Shown: piece by piece, positions 21,292 to 33,796 of the stretch
How positions within the stretch are numbered: the stretch's first letter is position 1
Layout of the letters: each line of letters begins with the position of its first letter
IMG/VR virus record: IMGVR_UViG_3300031356_000002
Span: 1-38,490 of that record
Direction: 5' to 3' (one strand)
Source of the DNA: a virus
DNA length: 38,490 bases
Notes under the pieces: model-generated
Database searches by the model: none
Seen by the model: the letters and a program-made list of their open reading frames with translations, nothing else
What the model was told of the DNA's origin: nothing
Position numbers and translations under genes: made by a program

Positions 21292-21432
21292 TCACTTCGT
21301 GGCGTAGCCCTTGCCGGTGCCTCCGCACGCAGGGCACGGCCGTGTGTACTTTTTCCCCGTCCGCCTCACTACGGCCGCGATCACGCCTCGGCCGCCGCAG
21401 GTGCGGCACTTCCCCTTGTCTGGTGTCCGCAT
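21292..21432 (-). CDS. Mini DnaJ-type zinc-finger protein (46 aa)
   Basis: ATG 21432 lies inside the end of the preceding glycosyltransferase gene, with GGGAG eight bases upstream. The product contains CRTCGGRGVI and CPACGGTGKG, two CxxCxGxG half-sites like those of DnaJ zinc domains, separated by 19 residues, and almost nothing else. Such mini proteins are common in phages; a chaperone or RNA/protein-binding role is guessed. Between its stop and the next gene, a weak GGTCC/GGACC hairpin lies at 21273-21288. Confidence 0.7.
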   Translation of the reverse strand: MRTPDKGKCRTCGGRGVIAAVVRRTGKKYTRPCPACGGTGKGYATK

Positions 21433-22388
21433 CGCTCGATCTCCCTCAGCATCTCTCGGCAACGATGCTCGTAGGTGTGGTTGGCCATGACCCAGTCGCG
21501 GCAAGCCTCCCCATATTCCTCTCGATCGGTGTGGGCTCGCCCCAGCAGGATACCGACATGATGATCCAACTGTGCCTCAGTGGCGTATCGAGAGAAGCCG
21601 CAGTGGCACGGGAGGCCGGGCGATTCTCGCCGAACAACGCACGCCCCCATGCCGAGGGCCAGCCAGAGCCGGTCGCTCCAGTAGCCGTCGAGATTGTGCT
21701 GCTGGTCGACGCACAGGGTCACGGCCGCCCGCGACGCTAGGGCCGGCAGGTCCTCGGGCCGGACGAACGGAATGGCCCGGACCCCGGGCGGTGGATCGCC
21801 GCCCGGATGCCCGGCCCACACGATGCTGCGGCTGCACCGAAGGAGATTCGCAACGTCCCCCCGCCTCTGCCTGGCCGCCGTCGTGAAGTTAGCGAACAGG
21901 CACACATCGAACTCCGGCCGCTCAGAATGCTCGCACCGGCCCATCCACGACGGGCAGCCCTGGTCCAGCCAGCGGGCGTTCACGCCCAGCTCGGCGTACT
22001 CGCCCAGCAGCGACCGCTCCTTGACGAACACCACGTCCATCAGCCGCATCATCCGCAGCGTGTCGGTCGCCTCCAGGGTCTTGCTGGTCGTCCAATGACC
22101 CAGGTTCGGCTGCTCGACCAGCGGCAGCCCGGGCTCCGTCGCCATCAGGTCGAACGTCCACTGCGCCCAGGTCGCGTGCCTTCCCGGAGCTATCTCGGCC
22201 ACGTCGGCATAGTTCAGTCCAGCGCACCGCTGCTCGAAGAGGACCAGGTCGCACTCGACAGACGCCGCGTGCAGCCCGCCCACGCTGTGGCAGCCGACCA
22301 CCTCGTGATCGCAGTTGCACAGCGCCTCGGCGACCCACTCCATCTTCGGCCACGCCGAACGCCGCGGGTAGACGATTGCTATTCGCAC
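21381..22388 (-). CDS. CgeB-like glycosyltransferase (335 aa)
   Basis: GTG 22388 is chosen because GGAGG lies six bases upstream; a TTG at 22394 would sit directly on the ribosome-binding site. The start VRIAIVYPRRSAWPKMEWVA is a Rossmann strand-helix. FDVCLFANFT and IVWAGHPGGDPP follow, and then the C-terminal GYWSDRLWLALGMGACVVRR with SRYATEAQLDHHVGILL, which I associate with CgeB-like/Glyco_trans_1_2 proteins. It would act in the cytoplasm on an unknown acceptor. It follows the capsid-associated 186-residue gene, far from the other three glycosyltransferases. Confidence 0.72.
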   Translation of the reverse strand: MRIAIVYPRRSAWPKMEWVAEALCNCDHEVVGCHSVGGLHAASVECDLVLFEQRCAGLNYADVAEIAPGRHATWAQWTFDLMATEPGLPLVEQPNLGHWTTSKTLEATDTLRMMRLMDVVFVKERSLLGEYAELGVNARWLDQGCPSWMGRCEHSERPEFDVCLFANFTTAARQRRGDVANLLRCSRSIVWAGHPGGDPPPGVRAIPFVRPEDLPALASRAAVTLCVDQQHNLDGYWSDRLWLALGMGACVVRRESPGLPCHCGFSRYATEAQLDHHVGILLGRAHTDREEYGEACRDWVMANHTYEHRCREMLREIERCGHQTRGSAAPAAAEA

Positions 22389-22400
22389 GGCCAACCTCCG

Positions 22401-24844: not shown

Positions 24845-27667
24845 TCACTTCAGGCCGAGCAGCCTCCGCCAGCTCCGGTTGCGTTTCTGCCGCAACCTAC
24901 CATCGATTACCGCCTTGGCCTGCCTCAACTCCTCCTGCGTCGCCGCAGCCGCCAACCAGGCGAAGATGACCTCCGGCCCCTTGCCCGTTGATTTCTCGTC
25001 CCCCTCGATACATACCTCGATGCTCCGTAGCACCTCGTTCAACCTTGAGGCGGCCCCTACCGCCAGCTCCCGCACTCGGCGAGGCACATCCTCTGTACCG
25101 ACAATCGCGGCCATATCGTCCCGGCTCCACCGTATTCGCTGGTCATTCCTCCCTCGCGTTACGAGGCCCTTCTCCGGCAGGTGAGCCCGCAGGTGCTCCA
25201 TCACCCGCTCCAGGTCGTCGCCGATCCCGTCTACCTGGTTAGCCCTCGCCAGGGCGTTGCGAACGCCGTTCAGGCTCGCCTTGCCCGCGTCGTCGCTCCC
25301 CGGCGGGAAGTGGTGCCCGAGCTTCAGGTCGTCGAACGTCTCGACGGTGCCCGGGTGCCAGGCGAAGTACCGCTTGATCTTGCCCTTCTCTGCGGCCGAC
25401 AGCTCGCCCCACTGCTTGTCGGTGAAGTCGCTGAGCCGCAGTTTCCGCCATATGCCCTCGGCTCCCTCGCCCGATCCGCCGGGCGGGTTGCCGGGGACCA
25501 TCCCCTTGACCTCCGCGGCGGAGCCAACCGCTCCCTCTGTTTTGTTTCCGAAGGCGACCGTCTTCGACCGTAACACCATGGAGCGAGTAGGCTTGTAGCG
25601 GCTGCCTTCGAGCTGCACGCCGTTAATCAGCTCCCGCTGCTCCTCGATCTTGTCAATCGCCTTGACCAGGGCCTCGCCGATCAGTAGGTCCTCCTCCTCT
25701 CGGACCGCCCTCGCATACTGCACCAACTCGGAAATGTGGGCACCGCTGTATCCGTCCATCTTCTCGACGGCTCTCTTCCGGTCCTTTTCCGCCGCCTCCG
25801 GCAGCCACGATGCCAGCATGGCCGCTCTCGTTTTTGCATCTGGCAGGTCGAACAGGAGCACGTCATGGAACCGCCCAGGCCGGTCGATCAATGAGTCCGG
25901 GATTAGTTCCGGGTAGTTCGTGGTCAGCAGCGTGACGATGCCGGATGACCGCCCCATGCCGTCCATCTCACTCTTGAGCAGGTCCTCGGTGCCGCCCCTG
26001 CCCATCCAGTTGTCGACATCCTCGAAGCAGACTATCGACGGGGCTAATTCGCGGGCGAGATCGAAGGCGTGCGTTAAGGCCCCGTATACGCCCACCTGCC
26101 AGAAGTCCCTCGCTGCGACCCAGATGAACGTGGCCTCCGCCTGGTTCCGCATGATCCGGGCGGAGAGCGTTTTTCCGGTTCCCGGAGGGCCCATTAGGAC
26201 CATGCCGCGGTTCGGTGCAGCGGCCCGCGTCTCGTTGAGTGAGCCGACTGCCCGCATGACCGGGGCCTTGTTCCGTGCCGGCAGGAACAGGCCGTCCCAT
26301 TGCTCATCCGTCTTCGGCAGGAACCCGCCCGTCAGGCTGAATGCCTGTCCCTTAAGGAAGTTGTTCTGCCGTGACCACTGCCACGTCTTGTCGATCACGT
26401 CGCGTGCGAACTGCCGATCCTCCTCCTTATCCGACGTGTAGAACGTCACCTCTAACATGCCGTAGTACGGCTCGAACCCGACGACGAACTTCCGCCGGGT
26501 GCCGCAGCGGAACTGCAAGCCCTGGACAAGGAAGTCCTCTGTCTTCTCCGGCGTGAGCTGGATGATCTCGTATTTCGGCGGCAGCTCGTCGCCGCCGTGC
26601 GTTATGTGCCTCGTGTCCTCGACATCGTACTCGGCCAGGATCTCCCGTAGTCCGGTCAGCCAGGACCCGACGCGGGCCCGGGGGACAGCCGTGTGCACCC
26701 AGAACAGGTGCTTGACCTGGCAGCCGATGTAGCGGCTCACCCAGTCATACTCCAGGCTGGCCGGCTCCAGGTGTTCCCGCCACACATCGAACGTCGAACT
26801 GGTCGATTTGGCTGCGGCGGGTTGTCGGATCAATTGCGCTTCCGGCCTGAAGCCCCGCCCAATCACGGGCCTCGCCTCATAGACGCTCTTGAGCCAGCCC
26901 TTCACCCGATTGTCCTGGAAGCCCTTCTCGCCCAGCAGGTTCCACGCCTCGATGATCGCCCCGCGGTTGCTCGCCACCGAGACCACAGACCGCTCCATGA
27001 TCTCGTACTCCAGGATGTGCCAGCCGAGAGCCCCGTCCTCCTCGTCGCCCTTCTTCGGTCTGCGCTCCTCATACTTCGTCGGCAGGAAGCCGTGCGACAT
27101 CCGCCGGAGCACCTGGAACTCGACCATCTGTGCCACATCGCGGCCGAACGGGAAGTCCATGATCGCCGACTGCTCGGCGAGCCGCTTGCTGTTCCGCTTG
27201 AGGATCTTCATGAACTTGCCGATCGGCTGGATCGAGACGTGGTTGAACAGCAGCGGGCCCAGCTCGTCGACCGTCGCGCCCTTCGGCTCCAGGATGTCGA
27301 AGTCCCGGTCCTCGTCCACCGTCGTCAAGGTGTAGTCGAACACCAGAACGAACCCATCGAGTCCCGCCGGCTTCTTCGCCGCCTTGACAGGCAGCAGCTC
27401 CATGTTGCGGCCGAGCCGCTGGCGGCCCTCCTCCCCCAGGACGCTCCATGGCAGCGGCTCGATGGTCGCTCCTTGCTCGCAGTAGGTCAGCGTGCCGCCA
27501 GCCTTCTCCATGACCGCCTGCCATTCCGAAGGCGAGACACCGAAGAGGTTCGGCGGCGTCGCGTCCAGGTAGCTCCTGGCCGTGCCGATGCCCCACCTCC
27601 CGTCCGGCCTCCGGCCCCGTAGGCTGTCCAGGATCGGGCCAGCCGTGTCTAGCTCTGCCGTCGCCAT
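24845..27667 (-). CDS. Prohead protease fused to AAA+ ATPase (940 aa)
   Basis: ATG 27667 follows GGGAG. Residues about 105-240 match HK97/S78-type prohead proteases: FDYTLTTVDEDRDFDILEPK, then LLFNHVSIQPIGKF with the candidate catalytic His143, VLRRMSHGFLP with the candidate Ser191, and MERSVVSVASNRGAI. Residues about 460-640 are a complete AAA+ module, with GPPGTGKT at 493-500, Walker B SIVCFEDVD ending at 552, sensor TTNYPEL and arginine-finger region RPGRF at 596-600. The segment between (about 295-480) is unassigned. Near residue 780 is KLGHH followed by NGVRNALARANQ, as in C-terminal tails of phage protease proteins. It would process the capsid scaffold, with an unusual ATP-driven unfolding or remodelling activity in the same chain. 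Confidence 0.85.
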   Translation of the reverse strand: MATAELDTAGPILDSLRGRRPDGRWGIGTARSYLDATPPNLFGVSPSEWQAVMEKAGGTLTYCEQGATIEPLPWSVLGEEGRQRLGRNMELLPVKAAKKPAGLDGFVLVFDYTLTTVDEDRDFDILEPKGATVDELGPLLFNHVSIQPIGKFMKILKRNSKRLAEQSAIMDFPFGRDVAQMVEFQVLRRMSHGFLPTKYEERRPKKGDEEDGALGWHILEYEIMERSVVSVASNRGAIIEAWNLLGEKGFQDNRVKGWLKSVYEARPVIGRGFRPEAQLIRQPAAAKSTSSTFDVWREHLEPASLEYDWVSRYIGCQVKHLFWVHTAVPRARVGSWLTGLREILAEYDVEDTRHITHGGDELPPKYEIIQLTPEKTEDFLVQGLQFRCGTRRKFVVGFEPYYGMLEVTFYTSDKEEDRQFARDVIDKTWQWSRQNNFLKGQAFSLTGGFLPKTDEQWDGLFLPARNKAPVMRAVGSLNETRAAAPNRGMVLMGPPGTGKTLSARIMRNQAEATFIWVAARDFWQVGVYGALTHAFDLARELAPSIVCFEDVDNWMGRGGTEDLLKSEMDGMGRSSGIVTLLTTNYPELIPDSLIDRPGRFHDVLLFDLPDAKTRAAMLASWLPEAAEKDRKRAVEKMDGYSGAHISELVQYARAVREEEDLLIGEALVKAIDKIEEQRELINGVQLEGSRYKPTRSMVLRSKTVAFGNKTEGAVGSAAEVKGMVPGNPPGGSGEGAEGIWRKLRLSDFTDKQWGELSAAEKGKIKRYFAWHPGTVETFDDLKLGHHFPPGSDDAGKASLNGVRNALARANQVDGIGDDLERVMEHLRAHLPEKGLVTRGRNDQRIRWSRDDMAAIVGTEDVPRRVRELAVGAASRLNEVLRSIEVCIEGDEKSTGKGPEVIFAWLAAAATQEELRQAKAVIDGRLRQKRNRSWRRLLGLK

Positions 27668-27680
27668 GATTCGCTCCCGC

Positions 27681-27719
27681 AAAAGAAAAAGGCCCGCAAC
27701 CTGCGTGAGGTTACGGGCC
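27681..27719 (-). terminator. Terminator-like hairpin abutting the protease gene ribosome-binding site
   Basis: On the minus strand GGCCCGTAACC, a 7-nt loop and GGTTGCGGGCC form an 11-bp stem (one G-U pair), followed by TTTTTCTTTT. The U-tract ends only a few bases before GGGAG and ATG 27667. There is no room for a promoter between the hairpin and the start codon. It may therefore work as an attenuator in the leader of the protease-capsid operon or end an upstream transcript. Confidence 0.75.
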
Positions 27720-27748
27720 CGGTGTTTCCGATACCCAGTTGTGTCAAG

Positions 27749-27821
27749 TGGCCGGCCCTGGAATTGCACCAGGATTCTCAGCGTATGAAACTGAGGAGGC
27801 GACTACGCCTTCCCGCCGGCT
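27749..27821 (-). tRNA. Degenerate tRNA-Met-like element, anticodon CAU
   Basis: The 73-nt segment folds by eye as a tRNA. The acceptor is AGCCGGC/GCCGGCC with an A1-C72 mismatch. The D arm has one mismatch or an alternative GGCG/CGCC stem. The anticodon stem is TCAGT/GCTGA with loop TTCATAC, putting CAT at 27787-27785. A 4-nt variable loop and a perfect T stem CCTGG/CCAGG with loop TGCAATT follow. T54, C56, A57, A58 and the G53-C61 pair are present, but position 55 is G. No CCA is encoded (A then CTT). It may be a decayed or non-canonical tRNA or a tRNA-like leader structure. Confidence 0.4.
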
Positions 27822-29309: not shown

Positions 29310-32300
29310 CTACTCCACTACGGGAGCCAATGTACATCGGCAGTTGCTTATGCCGATGCCTTCTGTTATAATGAGGCCGTTCACAGATTGGAGGTCGTAC
29401 ACATGTCCCGTGAAATTCCGATTCCGAACCTCGACGACCTCGTCGAGCAGTACCAGGCCGGGAAGTCGCTCAAGAAGATCAGCGACGAGACCGGCTACGG
29501 CCGCAACGTCCTCTTTAATCGCTTCAGGAAATGCGGCGTCAAGATGCGAGGCCGATCCGAAGCTGAACTCGTCAAGTGGCAGGCACTCAAGGGCGACCGT
29601 TCTGCTGTCCTTCGCCAATGCGGTGCTGCTTGGAAGGCCAAGGCCAAGCTGCCCGATCCCGGCAATGCAAGCACCTCTCGCGTCGCTGGCGATTCTGCCG
29701 TCGCCAACCGAGCAGCTGGCAGATACGCGGCCCAGACCCAAATCTACCCCTGGGAAGATGTCTTCCACGCCTTTCTCAATGGGGCGGGGTATCCCTTCGA
29801 GAAGCAACGAGCCGTCGGCCCATACAACCTCGACCTCTCCACGAAGTCCCCGCCCGTCGCCGTGGAAGTCGTCCGGCAGCCCGCGGCGTCTTTCAACAAG
29901 CCCCTTGTCGGACACGTCAGCAGCCAATCGCAACGCCTCAAATACATCCTCGATCAGGGCTGGTTCGTGATATATCTGATCGCGACCTACAGAAATGAAT
30001 CCCGGACCTTCAGCCTGGACGTTGTAGGCCAGCAACTTCTCGCCCTGGTGCAGCGAGCCGGCAGCGACGAATCCGTCTTCGGTAAGTATGCGGTGCTGTG
30101 GGGTCACGGTGAGCCGCCGGCCGCCTCTCGTTATGATTTCGCAGACCTGCCCGCCGTAATAGGCTTTGGTGCCAGCGATGAATCGCCCTTCGACTAGCTG
30201 GCCGGGCAAGATACAGTTGCATCGTTCGGCCGCCGGCAGCGAGTGATGGCCGGGGTACGGCGCTACGTGCCCGCCCACGTCCCACTTGCCCACCGGGTAG
30301 TCGCCCGGGGCCCTCGCCCCGTTTAGGGCCGCGTGGCTGCCCCGCGTGTACTGGTCGATGATCGCCATCCACTCCATGCCGTCCGTCACGCCGTCGTTGA
30401 ATAGTTGTTCTTGTTGGGCCGCTTGACCGCAATTCAGAGCGCCTGTGACCTCTGTCCTGGCTATCAGCAGGGCCCGCCGCCGCGACGCCTCGCTGCCTAG
30501 CACGGCATTCGTGCCGAACACCGTCCCCGGCGGGAACACCCCCGGGTCGACCACCGGCACCGTCGGGGCGTCGCCTACCCTCGCGGCCAAGTAGTGCAGC
30601 GACTCGCCGTTCTGCACGCCCTCGGATAGCGTCGCGGCCAGCTTCGCCCGCGTCGTCTGCTGCACGTCCGGCCAGTAGGGCCGCGACAGCAATGTCTCCA
30701 GCTCGCCGTCGATCTTGGCCCGCACGGCTGGCGTCAACTCGACCATCAGCTCCTCGGCGCTCGGCCCGGCCTTCGTCGCCTTGACCTGCTCCATCGTCCG
30801 CACCGCCCCGACGGCCGCGGCCCGCTCCAGGTGCGGCCGGCAGACCTCCACCAGCCGCTCCTCCCACTCGTCCGGGTCGAATATCACCTCGACCAGCCCG
30901 CCGGCGTCCCCCGCCGCCTTCTCCAGCTCCCCCAGCACCTCGTACAGCCGGGCCGTCACCGAGTCCCGCTGCTCTAAGAATAATGTATGCACCGCCTCCA
31001 GCAGCCCCGCCTCGTGCCGGCTGTGGGCCTTCAGCCACGCCTTGACCCGCGCCTCCTGGTCAAGTGCCATGGAAATGTCCGGCGGCTCGTCCGCCGACTT
31101 CCCTGACGACACTACAGCCGGCAGGGGCATCGGCGGGGCGGCCACCGCGTCGCCGCCGTCCATCGGCTCCAGGTTGAGGTGGGTCAGCGCGCCCCTCAGC
31201 TCGTCCTTCGTCACGCTGCCGTACTTCGCCGCCAGGTCAAGGTCCCGCCGCCGCTCGTCCCGGTCGTCAGGCACGTACGGCTCGATCCACACCCGCAGCC
31301 GCTCGCCCTCGACGGCCACGATCGGGCCCAGGCTTCGGGTCAGCACCTCGCTGACCAGCTCGATCTTCGGGTTCACGGTGTGGTCGGCGAAGTGCCTCCG
31401 GGCGGCATAGCTCGACGCCCGGTTCACCTTCTCGATCTCGCCCGCGATCACCGGGTTCGTCCCGTGCCCCAGAAAGATGCGGTCCTTCGTCACCTTGCCG
31501 CTGTCGGTGAAATCCATCTCGTTCGGCTTGTTCGAGAGCGGCTTGATGTCATGGATCAGCCGGTCGAGGATGATCGGCAGGCCATACTGGGCCGTCTGCG
31601 TGTAGAGCCGCTTGAACTCCGCGTAGAGCTGCTGCCTCTGCCCGTGCTCCAGCACGGGCCGCCCCAGGTTCTCGCCATCCTCGGTCACGTCGCCGACGAC
31701 CAGGGCGTGCTTCGGGAACGGGGCGTTGAGGAAGGTGTTAGCCTGCGCGTCCTGCATCGCCTCGTCCGCCGACATCGCCCTCGATTGCGTCATGGCCGGC
31801 GAGGTGCAGCCCAGTGGGTCGGCCAGGTCAGGGTAATGGAAGTAGACCACCTCATCGTTCGGGATCTCCTCCGGCTCGCCCTGGCCGCCAGGCGTGATCG
31901 ACCACGCGGCGAACGGCTTGCGGTCCCTGTGTACCGGCTCGAACCACAGCGACGGAACCGGCCAGATCACCGGCCCGTCCTCGCCCGCCACGATCCACCA
32001 TAGGTGCTCGCCGGCGATCTCCAGCGACGCGATCAGGATGTACAGCAGGTGCCACCTCGTCATCACCGGGTTCGGGTTCGCGATCGCGTCCAACAACGGG
32101 TGCGTCTCGTATTGCTCGACCTCGGCCTGCTTCAACCAACCCGGCAGCGATGCCTTCGTCGCCAGCCTGCCTGACCGCGGCCTCTCCATCGGGCCCAGCT
32201 CCCGGCCCACCCCTACCGGCTGCCCGGCGATCGTCTGGGCTATCGGCCGGATCGCGGCGTAGGTCCAGCCACGGTAGTGGCCGTACATCTCCCGCTCCAC

Positions 32301-32462
32301 GGCGCCCTCCCCGAACAGGCCCGTCGATAGCTGCGACTCGCCGAGCACGACGCCGCCGCCCGCCATCAGCGACTGCCTCGACGGGACCGCCGCCCGGTGC
32401 CGGAACACGGCCTGTTCGGTCCTGTCCCGGCTCTCCCTCAGCGTGTCAGCGATGGCTCCCAT
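29310..32462 (-). CDS. Portal protein fused to Mu gpF-like minor head protein, interrupted by an intein (1050 aa precursor)
   Basis: ATG 32462 has GGAGG eight bases upstream. Residues 1 to about 430 look like an HK97-type portal (HYRGWTYAAIRPIAQTIAG, then LDAIANPNPVMTRWHLLYIL, NDEVVYFHYPD and FLGHGTNPVIAGEIEKVNRA). Residues from about 520 form a gpF/SPP1 gp7-like head morphogenesis domain (ALLIARTEVTGALNCGQA, GMEWMAIIDQYTRGSHAALN, YPGHHSLPAAERCN). The canonical ending CNCRCTLAP is split between N749 and C1041 by a 291-residue intein. Excision would give a 759-residue protein ending CNCRCTLAPVVE. Portal and minor head protein are usually separate genes. The portal forms the DNA channel at one capsid vertex. 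Confidence 0.88.
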   Translation of the reverse strand: MGAIADTLRESRDRTEQAVFRHRAAVPSRQSLMAGGGVVLGESQLSTGLFGEGAVEREMYGHYRGWTYAAIRPIAQTIAGQPVGVGRELGPMERPRSGRLATKASLPGWLKQAEVEQYETHPLLDAIANPNPVMTRWHLLYILIASLEIAGEHLWWIVAGEDGPVIWPVPSLWFEPVHRDRKPFAAWSITPGGQGEPEEIPNDEVVYFHYPDLADPLGCTSPAMTQSRAMSADEAMQDAQANTFLNAPFPKHALVVGDVTEDGENLGRPVLEHGQRQQLYAEFKRLYTQTAQYGLPIILDRLIHDIKPLSNKPNEMDFTDSGKVTKDRIFLGHGTNPVIAGEIEKVNRASSYAARRHFADHTVNPKIELVSEVLTRSLGPIVAVEGERLRVWIEPYVPDDRDERRRDLDLAAKYGSVTKDELRGALTHLNLEPMDGGDAVAAPPMPLPAVVSSGKSADEPPDISMALDQEARVKAWLKAHSRHEAGLLEAVHTLFLEQRDSVTARLYEVLGELEKAAGDAGGLVEVIFDPDEWEERLVEVCRPHLERAAAVGAVRTMEQVKATKAGPSAEELMVELTPAVRAKIDGELETLLSRPYWPDVQQTTRAKLAATLSEGVQNGESLHYLAARVGDAPTVPVVDPGVFPPGTVFGTNAVLGSEASRRRALLIARTEVTGALNCGQAAQQEQLFNDGVTDGMEWMAIIDQYTRGSHAALNGARAPGDYPVGKWDVGGHVAPYPGHHSLPAAERCNCILPGQLVEGRFIAGTKAYYGGQVCEIITRGGRRLTVTPQHRILTEDGFVAAGSLHQGEKLLAYNVQAEGPGFISVGRDQIYHEPALIEDVFEALRLAADVSDKGLVERRRGLPDDFHGDGRGLRGEVEVVWADGSLLLEGIPRPIEKGVEDIFPGVDLGLGRVSASCSVGDGRIASDARGACIAGIGQLGLGLPSSTALAKDSRTVALECLPLDEFSFGSASHLDAAFPEAIKEDVAAVAGLVADLLERLPGLVLLDEVVEVRNRNFTGHVYDLQSVNGLIITEGIGISNCRCTLAPVVE
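29344..29372 (+). promoter_or_regulatory. Consensus promoter for the antisense nuclease gene
   Basis: TTGCTT (29344-29349), a 17-nt spacer and TATAAT (29367-29372) form a near-consensus sigma-70 promoter on the plus strand. It overlaps codons for the intein C-terminus and the splice junction residues (intein ends at 29343). GGAGG at 29390-29394 is eight bases before ATG 29403. The gene can thus be expressed independently of the minus-strand late transcript. Confidence 0.72.
29403..30197 (+). CDS. Putative homing endonuclease (HTH plus PD-(D/E)XK/Vsr-like), antisense inside the intein (264 aa)
   Basis: ATG 29403 has GGAGG at ideal distance and its own promoter. Residues about 10-50 form a helix-turn-helix (LVEQYQAGKSLKKISDETGY then NVLFNRFRKCGVKMRGRSEAE). 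Residues 115-200 resemble a Vsr/EDxHD-type PD-(D/E)XK nuclease: PWEDVFHAFLNGAGYPFEKQ, then GPYNLDLS with candidate Asp144, VAVEVV with candidate Glu155, and RLKYILDQGWFVIYLI. It begins 60 nt inside one intein boundary and stops 18 nt inside the other. Every codon is the exact reverse complement of an intein codon. It would cut intein-free alleles of the minor head gene and drive intein homing. Activity is inferred. Confidence 0.78.
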   Translation: MSREIPIPNLDDLVEQYQAGKSLKKISDETGYGRNVLFNRFRKCGVKMRGRSEAELVKWQALKGDRSAVLRQCGAAWKAKAKLPDPGNASTSRVAGDSAVANRAAGRYAAQTQIYPWEDVFHAFLNGAGYPFEKQRAVGPYNLDLSTKSPPVAVEVVRQPAASFNKPLVGHVSSQSQRLKYILDQGWFVIYLIATYRNESRTFSLDVVGQQLLALVQRAGSDESVFGKYAVLWGHGEPPAASRYDFADLPAVIGFGASDESPFD

Positions 32463-32916: not shown

Positions 32917-33775
32917 TCATTCCGGGACCTCGTCCCACGTCCGACCGTCCAGCTTGCGACCAGCACGCTTGCGGCCGACGCGAAAACTTGACCTGGCAAT
33001 GTTGTGCCAGTAGTGTCGGTCGTAGTCTGCCAGAACAACGGCGGTCTCTATGTCCAAAGCATTCACGGGTGCCCATTCGCCCCATTGCTTAAAGAAGAAG
33101 GGCACATGCGCGCGCCGGCAGGCGTCACGGATTCGGCGAGCCCAGTCAGGCCGCATCGGCCGGGCCTGCGGACCGGACTCGCCACCCACGATCACCCAGT
33201 TAATCCAATCCCCCAGGCAGGACAGCTCGACGGGCCCCAGCAGCGGCTCGACGGACACGAATCGCAGCGCCGCCTTCGTGTCGATCAGATGTGCGATGCG
33301 GGGGTAGCAGATCGCGTCTTCGACGCTGACCCCGGCCCAGACGTTGGGTGGCAGGCCCCGGGGCCGATAACGCCGCTGCCAGCTCCTCATCGTGCTAGGC
33401 CGCTTCGTCAGGATCAGCCAGTCCAGCCAGGGCGTCCTCGCCCACAGTTTGGCCACCCGCTGAGCCGCGGCATCTTGCCTCCACGCAATCTCGTCGCGCC
33501 GGCTCCGCTCGAAGAAGTCCCCTAGCGACATCAGAAAGACCCGCCGACGCTGGCCCGCTTCCTCGGCCTTGCGGTTCCACGACAGCGGCTGCCTCCAGGT
33601 CGACTCGGCCGCGAAGACCCGTTCGCCGTAAGGCCCCATGGTGCCGAACTTCGCGGGCTGCCGGATGCAGTAGCGCTCGGCGTAGCAGTGGTCACAGCCA
33701 GCCGTCAGTTTGGCACAGCCTCTCCAGGGATTGAAACGTGTGGTGCGCCCATTGGATCTTCGTCTCTGCGCCCAT
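32917..33775 (-). pseudogene. DUF5131 (phage Gp37/Gp68-like) gene with 1-nt frameshift near its 5' end
   Basis: The body matches DUF5131: FNPWRGCAKLTAGCDHCYAE with a C-x7-C-x2-C cluster, then RVFLMSLGDFFE, LDWLILTKRPS, WAGVSVEDAICYPRI, WVIVGGESGPQARPM and FFFKQWGEW. Family members begin with an M..-K-(I/Q)-W-hhT motif. Here that start, MGAETKIQWAHHTF, is encoded from ATG 33775 with AAGGAGG eight bases upstream, but in another frame. One extra T in a TTT run (complement of 33734-33736) separates it from FNPWRGC. A GTG at 33783 keeps the body open but sits directly on the ribosome-binding site. It is thus either a recent mutation, a sequencing error or slippage. Family function is poorly defined (radical-SAM-like Cys cluster). 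Confidence 0.82.
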
Positions 33776-33796
33776 GACCACACCCTCCTTTCTGTT

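Follow-up and report, generated by a model that had tools for sequence, protein, structure and literature searches.

Introduction

Can an intein and the endonuclease that would spread it be encoded on the two opposite strands of the same DNA? In the usual view, the endonuclease of an intein is an in-frame domain, and one fused protein does two jobs. The question arises from a viral sequence of 38,490 bases, IMG/VR record IMGVR_UViG_3300031356_000002 (the whole of which is called the window here), for which a preliminary description had placed a minus-strand intein and a plus-strand nuclease gene on one segment and read the pair as a single antisense-nested element. Our analysis supports this reading through a layout that recurs across a family, relatives of the nuclease among homing endonucleases, and presence/absence polymorphism together with transfer. 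We consider the locus very probably a mobile intein with a homing endonuclease gene placed antisense within the intein's own DNA. Its main features are the following.

29310..32462, minus strand: host gene, a fusion of portal and MuF minor head protein, 1050 amino acids including the intein (Pfam, PHROG)
29343..30215, minus strand: intein of 291 amino acids, C750-N1040 of the host ORF (PF14890, 1.4e-5; motifs; alignment of homologues)
29403..30197, plus strand: antisense nuclease ORF of 264 amino acids, wholly within the intein

Results

The host gene and its intein

The host ORF matches Phage_portal (PF04860, 1e-32) and Phage_Mu_F (PF04233, 4e-9) in Pfam and a portal family in PHROG (7e-49), with the intein close to its C-terminus. 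It is adjoined by a gene for a DUF5131 protein (32920-33783, minus strand; 5e-73). Elsewhere in the contig, between capsid and portal genes, one minus-strand ORF (24848-27769) joins a Peptidase_S78 prohead protease to an AAA ATPase domain, an unusual fusion, and there are two glycosyltransferase-like genes, at 1755-2735 and 21384-22394 (-).

The preliminary description had the intein boundaries right. The intein shows Cys1, block B (T38-P-Q-H41), block F (HVYDLQ), a C-terminal Ser-Asn and Cys+1, with the splice junction in the host protein reading RCN/CRC; Cys1, the TxxH of block B, the C-terminal Asn and the +1 nucleophile make up the complete set of HINT splicing residues. Among 61 homologues, C1, G22, T38, H41 and G48 are invariant and the terminal Asn (N291) is nearly so. 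Solved inteins are recovered by the intein family profile with E-values down to 1e-10, and by Foldseek with the AF2 model at probabilities up to 1.00. The model has HINT structure at both ends and a disordered linker (pLDDT below 50 at residues 160-234). A further segment, residues ~85-133, is modelled with confidence and matches the dual-constraint zone described below; this confidence could be due in part to conservation imposed from the opposite strand. No endonuclease is encoded in the intein's own minus frame, where the linker is disordered and near-neutral, just as the absence of an in-frame endonuclease had been claimed. Across the C-terminal intein junction lies an 8-bp inverted repeat (29335-29358; CATCGGCA ... 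TGCCGATG), which was called as terminator-like.

The plus-strand protein

The plus-strand protein combines an HTH domain (residues ~10-62) with a Vsr-like PD-(D/E)XK domain (~97-235), followed beyond residue ~240 by a tail that is not conserved. In 71 diverse members, G20, Y141, D144 and E155 are invariant, and Y17, R49, A76, A104, E118, N142, A153 and R178 are nearly so; free variation of D144 and E155, which would have spoken against the original proposal, is thus not what the family shows, with E118 and R178 also held nearly constant. Profile searches matched 3hrl, a nuclease-like protein of solved structure (5e-6), I-Bth0305I, a mobile-intron enzyme (3r3p, 2e-5), and an HTH protein, while the Vsr-like nuclease family MTES_1575 was matched by 55 of the 71 members and DUF559 by 21. 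The AF2 model (pLDDT 88.9) found 3r3p (probability 0.91) and 3hrl (0.84) among its best nuclease matches in Foldseek, neither with E below 0.1. Foldseek with the full-length protein returned nothing at E below 0.001 because two domains are joined, and the sequence-profile search is the better evidence for the identity of the nuclease. Both the fold and the acidic residues E118, D144 and E155 are those of a Vsr-like PD-(D/E)XK enzyme; in the family alignments there is no conserved His after E155, and the His/Asp of the EDxHD signature of I-Bth0305I is not conserved. The profiles, MTES_1575 and the AF2 model together bear out the claim of a complete 264-residue HTH plus PD-(D/E)XK protein nested in the intein.

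A family with a constant layout

With the plus-strand protein as tblastn query, 75 phage records were found at E ≤0.01 and 115 at E ≤1; further relatives came from two plasmids and 15 bacterial or prophage contigs, and IMG/VR motif searches gave 399 contigs with one motif and 56 more with another. We examined 168 loci, or ~110 once near-duplicates were dropped. An intact reverse-strand ORF had been suggested as the thing to look for in homologous loci, and the two-strand layout was found in 167 of the 168: an uninterrupted minus ORF bearing intein motifs faces the nuclease, always in the same phase, codon facing codon. The sole exception, L171 (4001-4639), comes from a Thermoleophilia genome bin and is a free-standing nuclease relative that faces no open minus frame, from which we see that an open minus frame is not automatic. 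Nor is the plus frame routinely broken by stops, being intact in all but ~5 of the 168, a count biased towards intact copies, since the nuclease was the search query.

The hosts are mostly MuF genes, some being without assignment. One (L005:2418-7070, minus strand) is a UDG-DNA polymerase A fusion with two inteins, one ordinary-looking and the other with the antisense nuclease. The homologous Guernseyvirinae MuF genes of L015 and L011 are occupied at two insertion sites (ST-T/CRxRDG and HPN/CRSTT), each by its own antisense-nuclease intein.

Which strand is coding where

In the codon-facing-codon phase, a conserved intein alone would yield a conserved-looking antisense frame, so that direct tests of the coding strand were needed. 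The plus ORF might then be a non-coding by-product, kept open and seemingly conserved by the intein residues opposite. Only minus-strand TTA, CTA and TCA break the plus frame in this phase, open antisense frames are common at high GC, and intein blocks F and B partly fix the sequence of both the Shine-Dalgarno/ATG region and the final 40-60 residues of the nuclease. When the intein protein was fixed and codons were drawn as in the host gene, an antisense frame of at least 264 open codons arose in 1.3% of draws, which makes openness by itself modest evidence.

The pattern of substitutions, however, separates the two strands. Among 13 sister pairs, changes in the middle zone fall at minus positions 1 and 3 in a ratio of 531:332 (p=1e-11), i.e. 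mostly at plus third positions, whereas minus third positions are favoured in the splicing blocks (154:253, p=1e-6) and the exteins (764:1485). Between close relatives, dN/dS in the middle zone is 0.10-0.52 on the plus strand and 0.19-1.24, mostly near neutral, on the minus strand; in the splicing blocks it is 0.03-0.31 on the minus strand and 0.45-1.8 on the plus strand. A lower rate of change near the active site was dropped as evidence of dual coding, as pairs of the L090/L169 type show recombination restricted to half the element; the two-strand map below was used instead.

For a two-strand map of 105 loci, synonymous codons were shuffled within each sequence so as to keep one protein while the other was scored; the resulting z-scores are inflated by shared ancestry, with internal controls near 0-6. 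The map divides the element as follows.

30018..30215, minus strand: N-terminal splicing half, intein residues 1-66; chiefly minus-strand constraint, in part on both strands beyond about residue 30
29817..29975, both strands: dual-constraint zone, nuclease residues 139-191 (YNxD144...VAVE155) facing intein residues 81-133 (DFHGDG..GEVEVV)
29457..29816, plus strand: plus-only zone, nuclease residues ~18-138 (HTH, linker, E118) opposite intein residues ~134-253
29343..29456, minus strand: C-terminal splicing half, intein residues 254-291; minus z 11-58

Minus constraint is concentrated at intein residues 1-60 (z 36-70) and 254-291, to which the overlapping nuclease adds some plus constraint. In the plus-only zone the plus z is 23-55 and the minus z mostly 0-6 except at the very end, the intein linker being unconstrained. 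As an internal negative control, the stretch upstream of the nuclease ATG shows no plus signal (z -0.4 to 1.9). In the dual-constraint zone the plus z is 32-84 and the minus z reaches 40, and AF2 is confident on both strands. Judged by these shuffles, some 53 codons at the nuclease active site are constrained on both strands, where the overlap is more than tolerated. The intein segment facing the active site, DFHGDG..GxIxIV (29817-29975), has a minus conservation well above the level that the nuclease implies. The two-strand constraint called for by the preliminary description is therefore found as plus in the middle, minus at the ends and both at the active site.

For the window itself, the codon-position test against L034 and L035 gave no signal, since these are too diverged; its closest relatives are 52% and 45% identical. 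Profile shuffles were used in its place, and the case at the level of the window rests on them. Against a nuclease profile from which the window and its two nearest relatives had been left out, the plus frame of the window scores 229 bits, compared with 72 ± 15.5 (maximum 113) in 300 shuffles keeping the intein protein; against the intein profile, the minus frame scores 243 bits, compared with 117 ± 14.3 (maximum 160) in shuffles keeping the nuclease. We regard this conservation beyond the shuffles as decisive for the plus frame being coding. The nuclease is moreover homologous to solved enzymes with a confident fold, the free-standing relative L171 has no open minus frame, and the start codon shows a CAT bias (below). 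A spurious plus ORF is ruled out by dN/dS, the two-strand map and the leave-out shuffles, and we give it almost no credence.

Mutual accommodation of the two genes

With the codons of the two frames aligned, TTA, CTA and TCA would each put a stop into the opposite frame, and both the nuclease and the intein linker have to do without them. None of the three occurs among the 28,914 codons of the plus ORFs, where ~513 would be expected from host-gene usage, and their absence from the nuclease keeps the intein frame open. The start signals of the nuclease lie within codons of the splicing motifs.

29403..29405, plus strand: ATG start, complement of the block-F His codon CAT
29390..29395, plus strand: Shine-Dalgarno GGAGGT, complement of block-F codons
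29364..29372, plus strand: extended -10 element TGTTATAAT (TGnTATAAT), within the intein C-terminal coding region

Of 110 loci, 76 start the nuclease with an ATG complementary to the block-F His codon and 9 with GTG. When the block-F histidine is shifted, the ATG generally shifts too. The block-F His is CAT rather than CAC by 76:9, compared with 787:1146 elsewhere in the same ORFs (p=1e-19). Matches of at least 5/6 to the Shine-Dalgarno sequence are found in 62 of 94 loci, where synonymous resampling predicts 27 ± 3.7, and matches of at least 5/6 to the -10 element in 64 of 94 (34 of them perfect), where it predicts 26 ± 3.5. The claim that the nuclease has its own promoter and Shine-Dalgarno sequence stands as far as GGAGGT, the extended -10 and their enrichment in the family are concerned; it is weakened by the -35 box of the window, TTGCTT, which is weak, so that a generic consensus promoter scan of the window called no promoter for the nuclease. 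From these promoter and Shine-Dalgarno statistics we infer that nuclease expression may be uncoupled from late transcription.

Presence, absence and transfer of the element

In P. aeruginosa phages the element is present in 14 records, and 23 have the same gene without it. Relative to CF23a, JBD44 is short of exactly 807 nt, and the JBD44 protein is the predicted spliced product at the junction. Exact empty alleles are also seen for fEg-Eco06 versus Bas72 (894 nt) and LSPA1 versus ER1 (816 nt). In all three relatives the predicted spliced product equals the empty allele and the insertion is precise and in frame. It could be supposed that the minus intein is non-functional, an endonuclease gene having been inserted backwards into MuF with the minus frame incidental, as the near-neutral and predicted disordered minus linker might suggest, but minus-strand purifying selection on the splicing blocks (0.03-0.31), the invariance of Cys1, T38 and H41 with a nearly invariant terminal Asn, the complete avoidance of the forbidden codons and in-frame empty alleles that encode the exact spliced product make this very unlikely.

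The elements of L057 and L058 are identical, with the edge of identity at the intein start and upstream exteins only ~80% identical, and L008/L032 and L153/L162 show the same contrast between the element and a diverged host gene. In the pair L153/L154 the intein is kept and the nuclease carries a stop, as expected after fixation. Presence/absence and transfer between diverged host genes, as read from these alignments, are the pattern that homing predicts.

The composite might be real and the antisense protein no longer, or not mainly, a homing enzyme, but rather a regulator that controls the head gene through its HTH or an exclusion nuclease directed at rival phages. The promoter-like signal, the HTH domain and the near-ubiquitous retention of the gene would fit such a role, as would the rarity of decayed nucleases, given that a homing cycle predicts many degenerate copies. 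That rarity, however, is biased by the search with a nuclease query; the catalytic residues are invariant, an intron homing enzyme is among the relatives, and the presence/absence polymorphism, the precise empty sites and the transfer between diverged host genes point to homing. We consider a regulatory or exclusion role improbable.

Discussion

A scenario for the mobile intein with an antisense homing endonuclease gene would run as follows. On the minus strand, the element would be read with the late head gene and translated as an in-frame insert, and the two HINT halves would then splice the intein out to restore the MuF head protein. On the plus strand, the promoter, Shine-Dalgarno sequence and ATG lying within the intein's C-terminal splicing codons would give a separate HTH plus Vsr-like PD-(D/E)XK nuclease, whose most likely target is the RCN/CRC coding site of MuF alleles that lack the intein, carried by co-infecting or resident phages. 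Recombinational repair of the cut allele would copy the whole element in. As late minus-strand transcription would oppose plus transcription, nuclease expression in prophages or early in infection is plausible.

Several known systems share parts of this arrangement. Bifunctional inteins such as PI-SceI and Mtu RecA likewise have HINT halves and an endonuclease, sit in frame at a conserved host motif and occur as presence/absence alleles; their endonuclease, however, is an in-frame domain, whereas the present one has its own gene, which is on the complementary strand and overlaps the splicing halves too. The Vsr-like homing endonucleases exemplified by I-Bth0305I, and with them DUF559 and MTES_1575, are alike in their nuclease domain, by profile and fold, and in having a separate DNA-binding region. 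They differ in that the present enzyme has an N-terminal HTH and an E-D-E core without the conserved His/Asp of EDxHD, and has an intein, not a group I intron, as the carrier of its antisense gene. Fractured genes, in which split inteins are accompanied by free-standing Vsr-like endonuclease genes, were reportedly described by Dassa et al. in 2009; they too have phage inteins whose splicing halves are separated by an independent gene for a Vsr-like endonuclease, but there both the host gene and its intein are split and splicing occurs in trans, whereas the present ORF is continuous (167/168 loci), with the nuclease encoded on the opposite strand.

Antisense homing endonuclease genes are known from nuclear rDNA group I introns, as with I-DsqI of Didymium (PMC9548176). 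There too the endonuclease lies opposite a self-splicing element and is thought to use its own promoter, but the carrier is a ribozyme, the gene sits in a peripheral loop and no protein coding overlaps it, while the carrier here is a protein intein, in frame with its host and selected as a protein on the minus strand. Phage methylases hold hidden HNH endonuclease inserts on the same strand (PMC11855218), which, unlike the present genes, come without a splicing domain or a detectable ribosome site. These two precedents mean that the earlier statement that no standard class has this layout needs qualifying: antisense endonuclease genes are known in group I introns, although our literature searches turned up no report of one within an intein. 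A 2025 preprint on non-canonical actinobacteriophage inteins might pre-empt this point.

Encoding the two functions as separate products on opposite strands would add a third arrangement by which splicing element and nuclease can be combined. The family also supplies many naturally occurring antisense gene pairs, long and in register, in which constraint can be measured for each strand, and closely related element-carrying and empty phage pairs are at hand for direct tests of homing. The findings imply that a second gene has been overlooked in many annotations of MuF or other head genes, for example in phages of Pseudomonas, Salmonella, Escherichia and Gordonia. On balance we lean towards the view that antisense-nested inteins are a class of mobile element that is ancient, widespread and not recognised until now. 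In such elements the nuclease active site and the intein segment facing it would be under dual selection, the codons of the splicing motifs would double as promoter, Shine-Dalgarno sequence and start, and the timing of the nuclease would be separable from late head-gene expression.
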